64,000 bases of DNA from Salinarchaeum sp. Harcht-Bsk1 (GTDB taxonomy: Archaea; Halobacteriota; Halobacteria; Halobacteriales; Salinarchaeaceae), in contig NC_021313.1 of the NCBI RefSeq assembly GCF_000403645.1, forward strand, positions 2,499,014 to 2,563,013, written 5' to 3'. This document shows positions 2,992-61,464 of the stretch, one piece after another. The notes beneath the pieces are model-generated. The model did no database searches. It was not told where the DNA came from and saw nothing but the letters and a program-made list of their open reading frames with translations. Made by a program: the position numbers and the translations under genes. Positions within the stretch are counted from its first letter, which is position 1, and every line of letters begins with the position of its first letter.

Positions 2992-4023
2992 TCACAGCAC
3001 GACGCGCTCCACGTCCGCGTGCCCAGCGCGCCGGACGACGGCCCGCACGGGGTCCTTCGCACCCGCGAGGTTGTCGGTGTCGCCGTCGAGCACGCACAGC
3101 TTCGCCGGTCGGCCTGCCTCGAGCACGCCCCAGTCGAGGCCCGCGATCTCCGCCCCGCGGTAGGTCGCCATCGCGAGCACCTCGGCGCTGGGGAGACCGG
3201 TCCACTTCGCGGTGAACGCCATCTCCCGGAACATCGACGGCGAGTTGAGGAACACGTTGTCTGTGCCGAGCGCGACGGTGGTCCGCTCGGCGAGGTCGGC
3301 GATCGGTGGCAGCCCGACGTCGGTGACGAGGTTCGATCGCGGACAGACGACCACCGGCGTCTGGCGGTCGTCGAGTCGGTCGAGGTGGTCATCCGTCGCG
3401 TGGACCATGTGAACGAGGAAGTCGGGGTCGAGATCCATCGCGGGATCGACGTCGCTCGCGTCGACCTCGCCGGCGTGGATGCCGAAGGGCTTCCCAGCTT
3501 CGCGGGCTGCGGCGCGCTCGGCCTCGAAGTTCGCGTCGTTCGCGCCGGAGGCGCCGTAACCGTCGGCAGTATCGAGCACCTCGATCTCCTCCCGGCCCAT
3601 GATCACCGGCTCGAGGTCGACGCCCTCCGCGTCGGCGGCCGCCCGCAGCTGTTCGACGCCCGCGACGCCGCCTTCACGAAATTCGATGCATGCGCCCGTA
3701 CCGCCGGCCTGCATATACCGAAGGGAGCGTTCCATCGCCGCAATCAACTCCTCGGGGTCGGCCTGGCGGAGGAGTCGGTGTTTCAGTCCGTCCGGCGGTG
3801 CGACGAGTTCCTCGAGCGAGAGTCCCTCACCGGCCCCCTTGGCGATGGAGTCTCCGAGGTGCGTGTGAGCGTTGACGAACGCCGGCAGGACGATCCGGTC
3901 GGAATCGACGCCGTCGCTCGACGGCGCCTCCTCGATCGCGCTGATCTCGCCGTCCTCGACGTAGATGGTCCCCTCGACCGGTTCGAAGTCCCGTCCGCGC
4001 AGGATCGTCCCCGACAGCTCCAT
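2992..4023 (-). CDS. Amidohydrolase family protein (cytosine deaminase/chlorohydrolase-like)
   Basis: A 343-residue metal-dependent hydrolase. It has the short N-terminal beta domain (SGTILRGRDFEPVEGTIYVEDG), then the metal motif FVNAHTHLGDS near residues 50-60, GIHAGEVD for the third ligand, HMVHATDDHLDRL for the fourth, and GTDNVFLNSPS carrying the catalytic Asp, followed by a TIM-barrel end (MATYRGAEIAGLDWGVLEAGRPAKL). This set is typical of the ATZ/TRZ-guanine deaminase superfamily, which hydrolyses C-N bonds of purines, pyrimidines or triazines. The substrate cannot be assigned. It is a single gene on the minus strand, next to an aldo/keto reductase in the same direction. Confidence 0.85.
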   Translation of the reverse strand: MELSGTILRGRDFEPVEGTIYVEDGEISAIEEAPSSDGVDSDRIVLPAFVNAHTHLGDSIAKGAGEGLSLEELVAPPDGLKHRLLRQADPEELIAAMERSLRYMQAGGTGACIEFREGGVAGVEQLRAAADAEGVDLEPVIMGREEIEVLDTADGYGASGANDANFEAERAAAREAGKPFGIHAGEVDASDVDPAMDLDPDFLVHMVHATDDHLDRLDDRQTPVVVCPRSNLVTDVGLPPIADLAERTTVALGTDNVFLNSPSMFREMAFTAKWTGLPSAEVLAMATYRGAEIAGLDWGVLEAGRPAKLCVLDGDTDNLAGAKDPVRAVVRRAGHADVERVVL

Positions 4024-12519: not shown

Positions 12520-12595
12520 GCTTCCCATGTGCGAGGCGGCTAGGAACGATTGCTGTGATGGCGCGGTGAGAGAATGGGGGCTATAAGATGTGCTC

Positions 12596-12996
12596 CGAAA
12601 GCCCCCGAACGCTCGACATTCCGGGGCTTGCTGCGGTCCTCAGTCGCTTCGCTCCCTGCGGTCCTTGCATCGCCCGGGAACGATCGACCGCCCGGCCCCT
12701 TTCGAAGTCCCACCCACCGCACCTCGTGCCTCCCCAACCTCCTGCGCTGCTCGGGCTCGCTCCGCTCACCGCTGCGCTGCTCGTCCCTCGCACGCTACGC
12801 GACGGCTTCGCCGCCGCGAAACGCGCGCCACTGCACCTTCGCCGGGTATCGACCACCTCGAAAAGCTATACGGGTGGGACTCCGGAAGGGGCCGACCGCT
12901 CGTCGCAGGTAACGACGGAAGCACTGCAGCGAAGGAGCGTAGCGACTGAGCGAAGCGCGCAGCGAGTTAGCTTCGACGAGCGGGAGGGGGCTTCCG
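12596..12996. repeat. Foldback dispersed repeat, copy A
   Basis: About 400 bases with imperfect inverted arms (12596-12715 and 12872-12996) around a 155-base centre. The arms begin with CGAAAGCCCCCGA and end with GGGGGCTTCCG, and share GCTCGAC, TCAGTCGCT, a C/T-rich stretch and CGGCCCCTTTCG-GTCCCACCC. A second copy in the same orientation is at 59126-59533. A central hairpin sits at 12798-12818. The arms may extend outward to the GGCTATAA-like sequences at about 12578 and 13008. Translations of this DNA are low-complexity and look spurious. It could be a non-autonomous mobile element or a structured regulatory or RNA element; no transposase is present. Confidence 0.85.
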
Positions 12997-13085
12997 AAGG
13001 CGGCTATAATCAAATCTCCACCATTCACCGGCGAATTCGGAGGGGGAACCGGGAACTATCAACGCCGGAGCCGAACCGTCGAATC

Positions 13086-58997: not shown

Positions 58998-59658
58998 CAC
59001 AGCGGCGCCCCACCACTTAAACAGCATTCTTCGCTCCCGAGTGAACGTTCGCCAGGTGGTGTTGGAGTTCGATACGGTGGCGAAATTCTTGGTGGCTGCT
59101 GTGGGTTTCCGTCCACTATCGCCTTCGAAAGCCCCCGAGCGCTCGACATACCGGGGCTCGCTGTGCTCCTCGCTCAGTCACTTCGCTCCTTCACTGCGGT
59201 GCTTGCTTCGCCCGGGAACGACCGACCGCCCGGCCCCTTTCGATGTCCCACCCACCGCATCCTCGGCCCTCCCCAGCCTCCTGCGTTGCTCGCTTCGCTC
59301 CGCTCGCTGCGCTACTCGTCCCTCGCACGCTACGCGGCTGTTGAAACAGCCGCGAAACGCGCGCCACCGCACCCGCCGGGATTTTGGCTAACTCGACTAT
59401 CTCCCTGGGTGGGGCTCCGGAAGGGGCCGACCGCTCGTCGCAGGTAACGAAGTAAGGACCGCAGCCGAACGAGCGAAGCGAGTGAGGCGAGGACCACAGC
59501 GAGTTAGCTGCGTCGAGCGGGAGGGGGCTTCCGTAGGAGTTTGCGGTCGCGTTCAAGCCAACGACCCAAGCAACTCCCTTCCATAGCGAATCAGCACTTG
59601 AAAAGAGTTAATGCCGCTGCAGGGCTCGATTCCACCAAGCACTTTCTGAGGGTTCACG
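58998..59658. other. Divergent intergenic region between ROK kinase and infB
   Basis: 661 bases occupied mostly by foldback repeat copy B (59126-59533). The 128 bases before and 125 after hold promoter sequence for the two genes, with no further gene seen. Confidence 0.6.
59126..59533. repeat. Foldback dispersed repeat, copy B
   Basis: About 408 bases, a second copy of the element at 12596-12996 in the same orientation, again in a divergent promoter region. Arms at 59126-59253 and 59407-59533 pair imperfectly along most of their length; they share GCTCGAC, CTCGCTGTG-TCCTCGC, CTGCGGT-CTT, and CGGCCCCTTTCG. A central hairpin CGCGGCTGTT-GA-AACAGCCGCG (59333-59354) has 10 perfect base pairs, replacing the different 9-pair hairpin of copy A. 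Confidence 0.85.
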
Positions 59659-61464
59659 ATGGCAGATACACCCACACCGGAGGGCGGCGACGAGCAGCTT
59701 CGCACCCCGATCGTCGCCGTGCTCGGGCACGTCGATCACGGCAAGACGAGCCTCCTCGACGAGATCCGGGGCTCGGCGGTCGCGGCCGGGGAGTCCGGCG
59801 CGATCACGCAGCACATCGGCGCGACGGCGGTCCCGCTGGACACGATCTCCGGGATCGCGGGCGCGCTGGTCGATCCGGACGACTTCGACCTGCCCGGGCT
59901 CCTCTTCATCGACACGCCGGGGCACCACTCCTTCTCGACGCTGCGCTCTCGCGGGGGCGCGCTCGCGGACATCGCCGTCCTGGTCGTCGACGTCAACGAC
60001 GGCTTCCAGCCCCAGACCGAGGAGGCGGTCGACATCCTCCGCCGGACGGAGACGCCGTTCGTCGTCGCGGCGAACAAGGTCGACACGGTGCCCGGCTGGC
60101 GCCCCGAGGAGGGCGCACCGATTCAGCAGCGATACGAGGCCCAATCCGACCGCGTTCGTTCGATGCTCGACGAGGGCCTCTACGAGATCATCGGCCAGCT
60201 CTCGGACGCGGGCTTCTCCGCTGACATGTACTGGCGCGTGCAGGACTTCCAGGCGAACGTCGGCGTCGTTCCGGTCTCCGCTGAAACCGGCGAGGGCATC
60301 CCGGACCTGCTGGCGGTGATGATGGGGCTCTCCCAGCGCTACATGCGCGAGGCAATGGAGATCGACACGGAGGGTCCTGGCGTGGGCACCGTCCTCGAAG
60401 TGAAGGAGGAGAAGGGCTTCGGGACGACGATCGACGTCGTGCTCTACGACGGCCAGCTCCGGCCCGGGGACCGGATCGTCGTCGGCGGCGAGGACGAGCC
60501 GATCGTCACGGACGTCCGTGCGCTTCTGCAACCGAAACCGCTCGCCGAGATTCGCACCGAGAGCCGCTTCGAGCAGGTCGACTCCGTCTCCGCCGCGGCC
60601 GGGATCAAGGTCGCTGCGCCGGAACTCGAGAAGGCGATGGCGGGTGCGCCACTGCGGGCCGTCCGGGATCGTCCGGTCGAGGAGGTCATCGCCGAGGTTC
60701 AGGAGGAACTCGCGGAAGTCGCCGTCGCGACCGGCGAGGAGGGCGTCGTCGTCAAGGCCGACACGCTCGGCAGCCTCGAGGCGATCGCCAACGCCACGGA
60801 GGAGGCCGAGATCCCGATCGTCCGGGCGGAAGTCGGCGACGTCGCGCCGCGGGACGTCGCCGTCGCCGAGACCGCCGACGATCCCATGCACCGCGCGATC
60901 CTGGCGTTCAACGTCGACGTGCTCGACGACGCCGCGCGCGAGGCCGAGGACGCCGAGGTCCGAATCTTCGACGACGACGTCATCTATCAGCTCATCGAGG
61001 AGTACGAGGAGTTCGTCACCGCGCGCGAGGAGGCCCAGCAGGAGCAGATCCTCGACAACATCACCCGCCCCGCGCGCTTCCAGATCCTCCCCGATCACAC
61101 CTTCCGGCAGTCCGATCCCGCCGTCGTCGGCGTCGAGGTCGTCGCGGGCACGCTCAAGAACAACTCCACCGTCGCCCGGTTCACCGGGAGCGAACCCGAG
61201 CGCATCGGCGAACTCTCCGGCATCCAGGAGCAGGGCGAAGACGTCTCGGAAGCCCGCCGCGGTGACCGGGTCTCCGTCGCGATCGACGGCCCGACGGTCG
61301 GCCGCCAGATCGACGAGGGCGACGAACTCTGGACGCTGATCCCCGAGAAGCACGCGAAGATCCTCGAGCAGGAACTCACCGACGACCTCCCTGGCGACGA
61401 GATCGAGGCGCTGAACATGTACCTCGAGAAGCACCGGAAGCGCGACCCGTTCTGGGGGAAGTAA
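59659..61464 (+). CDS. infB: Translation initiation factor IF-2 (aIF5B)
   Basis: 601 residues, short archaeal aIF5B form without the long bacterial N-terminal extension. GTPase motifs: G1 VLGHVDHGKTSLLD (23-30), G2/switch GAITQHIGATAVPL, G3 FIDTPGHHSF, G4 VVAANKVDTVPGW. Domains II-IV follow, with VGTVLEVKEEKGFGTTIDVVLYDGQLRPGDRIV and GVVVKADTLGSLEAIANATEEAEIPIVRAEVGDV. It promotes subunit joining of the ribosome. Essential housekeeping gene. Confidence 0.97.
   Translation: MADTPTPEGGDEQLRTPIVAVLGHVDHGKTSLLDEIRGSAVAAGESGAITQHIGATAVPLDTISGIAGALVDPDDFDLPGLLFIDTPGHHSFSTLRSRGGALADIAVLVVDVNDGFQPQTEEAVDILRRTETPFVVAANKVDTVPGWRPEEGAPIQQRYEAQSDRVRSMLDEGLYEIIGQLSDAGFSADMYWRVQDFQANVGVVPVSAETGEGIPDLLAVMMGLSQRYMREAMEIDTEGPGVGTVLEVKEEKGFGTTIDVVLYDGQLRPGDRIVVGGEDEPIVTDVRALLQPKPLAEIRTESRFEQVDSVSAAAGIKVAAPELEKAMAGAPLRAVRDRPVEEVIAEVQEELAEVAVATGEEGVVVKADTLGSLEAIANATEEAEIPIVRAEVGDVAPRDVAVAETADDPMHRAILAFNVDVLDDAAREAEDAEVRIFDDDVIYQLIEEYEEFVTAREEAQQEQILDNITRPARFQILPDHTFRQSDPAVVGVEVVAGTLKNNSTVARFTGSEPERIGELSGIQEQGEDVSEARRGDRVSVAIDGPTVGRQIDEGDELWTLIPEKHAKILEQELTDDLPGDEIEALNMYLEKHRKRDPFWGK

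Follow-up and report, generated by a model that had tools for sequence, protein, structure and literature searches.

The window, meaning the whole stretch of 64,000 nucleotides of Salinarchaeum sp. Harcht-Bsk1 analyzed here, contains two copies of a GC-rich element, each located between two genes. Copy 1 is flanked by purL on the minus strand and an NAD-epimerase-like gene on the plus strand, copy 2 by a ROK-kinase-like gene (minus) and an infB homolog (plus), with gene names taken from the translations. The infB product is 90% identical to that of Salinarchaeum laminariae, the nearest named genome. In both copies, the two arms (12597-12716 and 12871-12995 in copy 1, 59127-59254 and 59406-59532 in copy 2) represent a single ~123-nt sequence in inverse orientation, which confirms the inverted arms described in the initial annotation. 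A credible coding frame was not found within the element, as had also been stated there. The space between the arms is not featureless; it holds a further structured module that goes with the left arm and is read on the minus strand. Two models are used in the following: R1, a covariance model of the ~123-nt hairpin D3, and R2, which describes the 5′ module D1-D2 and was trained only on G006, a genome from another family. The features of the two copies are as follows.

Copy 1:
12597..12838, minus strand: type-A unit consisting of D1-D2, linker, and D3, read on the G-rich strand
12835-12701, minus strand: 5′ module D1-D2 (R2 match 12701-12835, E 1.5e-4)
Between D1-D2 and D3, minus strand: linker GAGGTTGGGGAGG...GGGTGGGACT
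12716-12597, minus strand: 3′ hairpin D3 of the type-A unit (R1 match, 106 bits)
12871..12995, plus strand: type-B hairpin D3 in opposite orientation to type A (R1 match, 129.6 bits; this hairpin is included in training alignment A2)
12579..12586, plus strand: GGCTATAA just beyond the left end, the same 8 letters as at 13002-13009
13002..13009, plus strand: GGCTATAA just beyond the right end, partner of 12579-12586

Copy 2:
59127..59371, minus strand: type-A unit consisting of D1-D2 and D3
59371-59242, minus strand: D1-D2 (R2 match 59242-59371, E 6.6e-5)
59254-59127, minus strand: type-A hairpin D3 (R1 match, 120.4 bits)
59406..59532, plus strand: type-B hairpin D3 (R1 match, 119.2 bits)

The basic building block is a ~255-nt unit that folds as a single strand and comprises, in 5′ to 3′ order, a two-stem module (D1 and D2), a G-rich linker (CTGGGGAGG...GGGTGGGACT), and the long 3′ hairpin D3. 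The copies of G006 are clean ~255-nt units of these three domains. D3 consists of short Watson-Crick stems that alternate with conserved GA/GA mismatches, plus a GGG/GGG internal loop. Two hairpin subtypes occur, A (GAAAG...CTTTC) and B (GGAAG...CTTCC); since they differ on both sides of the closing stem, the closing stem itself covaries. Units are found alone, as D3 only (type B), or as divergent inverted pairs like those in the window. Somewhat more than half of the 41 elements examined in the Harcht-Bsk1 genome (G000) are inverted pairs, and the rest are solo hairpins. All 38 pairs counted in two genomes are arranged alike: they are divergent, and their G-rich strands face outward. R2 matches the minus strand of both window spacers directly 5′ of the type-A hairpin and, in addition, several other loci of the Harcht-Bsk1 genome and several of the same-genus genome G001, where the match likewise adjoins an A hairpin. 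Many type-B hairpins carry, instead of D1-D2, the motif CCACCGGGGTTTCGCGA ~34 nt upstream. A second CTGGGGCTT, the 3′ end of the hairpin, follows at most 110 nt downstream in 23 of 67 G006 units.

Tandem repeats lie 3′ of the unit at the G006 loci L233, L235, L252, L256, L360, L372, L373, and L384. They contain the 3′ strand of the hairpin (CCGAGCGACTGGGGCTTCGG...) and are near-identical within a locus while differing between loci.

The fold is strongly conserved. In D3, 95.9% of cells are paired, and covariation amounts to 0.464 compared with 0.05-0.09 when the partners are slid by 1-3 columns; for the whole G006 unit, the corresponding values are 97.0% and 0.329, compared with at most 0.05 for slid partners, and RNAalifold yields a z of -13.5 relative to column shuffles. 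Each whole element, folded as the initial annotation had suggested, scores better than all of its 100 dinucleotide shuffles, with z between -3.4 and -8.3. G·T pairs far exceed A·C pairs on the G-rich strand (47:11 in the MAFFT alignment, with further counts of 74:24 and 64:20-23, and ~3 to 1 in G001). Hence, the G-rich strand is the folding strand, and such an excess is unexpected for a double-stranded cruciform.

Compensatory change is also seen between species. The Harcht-Bsk1 genome and G001 share about eight orthologous sites that carry an element in both. Within 13 orthologous hairpins, 69 base pairs have changed on both sides and still pair, and 29 are broken; 75 double changes compare with ~27 under independent change (maximum 37 in 2000 trials). 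At L093, an entire helix has been exchanged in situ, relative to its G001 counterpart, for another that pairs equally well. Some of the paired changes at such shared sites could also stem from conversion between copies. Template switching, which copies one side of a hairpin onto the other and to which GC-rich palindromes are prone, would yield paired changes in the absence of selection. As the origin of the paired changes, this mutational artifact is nevertheless scarcely credible: mismatches should disappear under it, but those of the GGG/GGG loop and the GA/GA positions are retained in nearly all copies, being either nearly invariant or alternating with Watson-Crick pairs, which argues against a simple palindrome-correcting mutation. 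Nor would it be expected to prefer G·T to A·C by ~4 to 1 on a single strand.

The initial annotation had left a choice between a foldback/MITE-like element and a structured one. Covariation, strand asymmetry, and the presence of several domains bear out the structured part, whereas the foldback part is hardly borne out. A nonautonomous MITE or foldback transposon, whose arms would be long terminal inverted repeats moved by a DDE transposase, would account for inverted arms, dispersed copies, differences in copy number, and positions that have changed between species. The two hairpins of one element are, however, no more similar to each other (0.685 identical) than hairpins of different elements (0.711) in the Harcht-Bsk1 genome, with the same outcome in G001, and these values weigh against a foldback pairing between the arms. 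About half of the elements are solo arms, and there is no near-identical burst. The fold is retained within each arm and not between arms, which counts against an ordinary foldback transposon; the long foldback would simply result from the head-to-head position of two hairpin units. Target-site duplication is usual in MITEs and foldback transposons. For the present family, a duplication at constant offset was not found over 32 pairs, and flank repeats around 67 G006 units are near chance (5.93 compared with 5.74 +/- 0.13). Flank repeats do exist at a few copies, namely, GGCTATAA at copy 1 of the window and TTATAAACAG at L234, and ~5 G006 copies have TTTATAA-like ones that are suggestive only. 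The GGCTATAA pair is a possible target repeat, not significant as a feature of the family. Taken as a whole, the transposon explanation is very unlikely.

A clean empty site was not found in the comparison with G001: the site of copy 1 is devoid of the element there but holds other sequence. At L095, the site is vacant but diverged, and a clean junction is given by neither of the two sites.

The family is far larger than the two copies initially noted. A DNA search of the Harcht-Bsk1 genome returned 73 matching pieces at ~40 places, and R1 finds at least 101 hairpins in it. The corresponding numbers are at least 111 in G001, at least ~95-96 in G006, at least 70 in G010, at least 39 in G027, and at least 35 in G004; G002, from the same family as the Harcht-Bsk1 genome, has none among the matches listed. 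In a phylum-wide scan, the element occurs in 28 of 42 haloarchaeal genomes, the 42 being the same-order genomes among the matches listed, and in 0 of 194 others. A segmental duplication confined to this genome, which the initial annotation had named as a reading that would speak against a mobile or structured element, is incompatible with this order-wide distribution. Individual copies are heterogeneous: hairpins range from 57 to 93% identity with the fold conserved, the median pairwise identity is 0.73 for the hairpins of the Harcht-Bsk1 genome and 0.79 for the G006 units, and the maximum is 0.93. A burst of near-identical copies is not seen in these pairwise identities; the copies are old and individually diverged. 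Dispersal, differences in copy number between genera, and changes of position between species point to past mobility, and dispersal together with the differing copy numbers suggests that a trans-acting enzyme has spread the family.

Plasmids from more than 10 haloarchaeal genera carry single hairpins as well; a plasmid of Halobaculum has most of a unit, and one of Halorubrum salinarum has part of a unit. The phage records searched gave no hairpin match (HRTV-DL1 being covered only if it is among those records), and a phage origin was rejected for this reason. On plasmids of six genera (L222, L223, L224, L227, L228, and L229; ~3001-3580), the same conserved gene for a "DNA-binding protein" (OB-fold in DL31) is preceded by a single hairpin at a distance of ~460-560 nt. 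The other neighbors vary at these loci, and the stretch from hairpin to gene is itself highly conserved. In CP002989.1, an annotated "hypothetical protein" (Halar_0093, 70808-71341) spans a plasmid copy of the hairpin; this gene is probably spurious.

Well-known elements with a comparable anatomy are the REPs and BIMEs of enterobacteria and pseudomonads. These are intergenic, present in many copies per genome, and formed by a hairpin with conserved mismatches; they occur solo or as inverted pairs of two subtypes, and their copies are heterogeneous. To our knowledge, no target duplication has been seen for REP/BIMEs, and we know of no 5′ two-stem module as part of a REP. The present family shares with them the intergenic position, the strand-specific hairpin with conserved mismatches, and the occurrence as solo copies or inverted pairs of two subtypes. 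It differs in a hairpin that is ~3 times longer, in the structured 5′ module D1-D2, in the long linker, and in being archaeal. Moreover, a RAYT/Y1 transposase was not found in the copy-rich genomes tested (G000, G001, G006, and G010; PF01797). By analogy, the family may be regarded as working like an oversized REP/BIME with an added 5′ module, except that the defining RAYT partner was not found in these genomes.

Among haloarchaeal elements, the PATEs of Haloquadratum and other haloarchaea have near-terminal palindromes related to IS605 ends, and they are heterogeneous, contain palindromic parts, show no target duplication, and are too short for a transposase (PMC3119063). One PATE of 489 bp is strongly transcribed in one direction (PMC10544981). 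The present family is likewise haloarchaeal, heterogeneous, and palindromic, with neither target duplication nor transposase gene; unlike for PATEs, a link to IS605-type ends was not found, the search for Y1 and TnpB genes in the Harcht-Bsk1 genome gave none, and the hairpin is missing from 30 TnpB loci. The SMRs of Haloquadratum have no transposase, measure ~110 bp or more, contain inverted repeats, and are present in many copies; they show no target duplication, and their copies are reported to be mostly >95% identical (PMC3119063). The MITEs of Haloquadratum have ends in common with a transposon, and their target is often duplicated (PMC3119063). Like SMRs and MITEs, the family is short, transposase-free, and present in many copies with inverted repeats, but its hairpins are, unlike those of SMRs, 57-93% identical with a conserved fold. 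In a literature search that covers few subscription papers, PATEs and SMRs were the nearest descriptions, and none of the family itself was found.

These likenesses lend some weight to a single-stranded DNA element of the REP/BIME or PATE kind, recognized by an HUH (Y1) transposase, or to an IS200/IS605 derivative that has kept its end or omega-RNA. Solo and inverted intergenic copies of a strand-specific hairpin with conserved mismatches are found in REP/BIMEs, and heterogeneous copies with no target duplication are found in REP/BIMEs and, according to PMC3119063, in PATEs. Furthermore, the fold tests, both covariation and G·T excess, fit single-stranded DNA as well as RNA. This explanation is nonetheless doubtful. 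No Y1 transposase was found in the four copy-rich genomes and no TnpB in that of Harcht-Bsk1, the 2.7-Mb genome G002 shows the inverse pattern of 51 TnpB matches and zero elements, 30 TnpB loci gave no hairpin match, and the 5′ two-stem module is not known from REPs. An origin from IS200/IS605, omega-RNA, or RAYT was rejected on the evidence of these enzyme searches.

With large structured Rfam RNAs, the family has several domains, strong covariation, and a strand-specific fold in common; it differs from them by ~100 copies per genome and by the lack of a match in Rfam 15. Against Rfam 15, no family reached threshold in the window except two tRNAs, and matches within the element are weak and far below threshold. 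RNA gene families do not usually reach ~100 copies in one genome.

All 41 elements examined in the Harcht-Bsk1 genome are intergenic according to a simple codon-usage gene caller; their distance is mostly 90-115 nt to gene starts and 45-65 nt to gene ends. This placement would suit a cis-acting element of the neighboring genes, such as a terminator, an insulator, or a UTR stabilizer acting as folded DNA or RNA, and all eight solo copies in tandem gaps of this genome are indeed co-oriented with the genes. Such a role is unlikely, however, because the elements fall into divergent, convergent, and tandem gaps as often as the background predicts, site occupancy changes from one species to another, and the distances also fit plain avoidance of promoters and 3′ ends. 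The orientation of solo copies relative to tandem genes is 6:5 in G001 and 4:13 in G006 (recounted by strand). A 3′-UTR element, promising from the 8:0 orientation, was rejected on these two ratios. AT-rich TTTATAA-like boxes are found at fixed distances on both sides of the G006 units, and they may reflect either a preference for certain targets or a motif at the ends of the unit. A promoter signal specific to the 5′ side was not found, with the AT boxes being alike at both ends of the G006 units, and an own promoter of the element was rejected on that basis.

Resting on the observed fold and its compensatory conservation, the folding strand, the domain architecture, the intergenic confinement, and the distribution, the reading preferred here, with a probability of roughly 0.52, is an order-wide family of old dispersed elements that would be selected as a folded single strand, probably RNA. 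RNA is favored over single-stranded DNA, since a fold comprising several domains and a linker goes beyond a single hairpin. The folded molecule would be made from the G-rich strand, and a protein may recognize the GA-mismatch hairpin. New copies would be rare products of a trans-acting enzyme, presumably neither a Y1 transposase nor a TnpB of the expected kind. The element would, hence, be mobile in origin and later have been preserved between genes owing to some function of the folded strand. Against RNA stands the absence of a 5′-side promoter signal, although any copy lying between divergent genes would have to bring its own promoter. The inconsistent orientation toward neighboring genes across the Harcht-Bsk1 genome, G001, and G006 speaks against the preferred reading as a whole. 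More specifically, and with the odds tilted against it, the family might be an undescribed class of three-domain ~255-nt RNA with a GA-mismatch hairpin, encoded by ~100 diverged, structure-conserved genes per haloarchaeal genome.

GC-rich repeats are numerous in haloarchaeal intergenic DNA and easily taken for noise or annotated as hypothetical proteins. One such class now proves to be one family spread across the order, for which the fold, the folding strand, and the limits of the domains are defined, and its fold is retained by compensatory change even at sites common to two species. A family defined in this way opens tests of the transcribed strand, of a binding protein, and of the mobilizing agent. 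It would represent an archaeal counterpart of REP/BIMEs devoid of the expected transposase.

At several sites, only one flank of the element is syntenic with G001, which places some elements at rearrangement points. One-flank synteny is seen for L217 with L074 and L078, for L061/L182, for L068/L218, and at 59540-59660 of the window; for the G001 element L217, the two flanks match two different elements of the Harcht-Bsk1 genome. It looks as if the elements sit at or mediate rearrangements, and their presence at several synteny breakpoints may bear on the rearrangement of haloarchaeal genomes.

Two further small structures are associated with the element. At L068 (2964-3147) and L091 (1830-2011), a nested ~60-nt double hairpin (TCGTCCGAGAGATC...CTTTCGAACGA) is inserted at exactly the same position, and it may be a small mobile repeat with the element as its target. 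At L203 (~2664-2705) and L066 (~3003-3043), an additional inverted repeat (GCGGCG.AAGCCGCGACGTCGGGAGATCT.TGATCTCCCG), identical at both loci, follows the 3′ end of the hairpin and might be a further small element.
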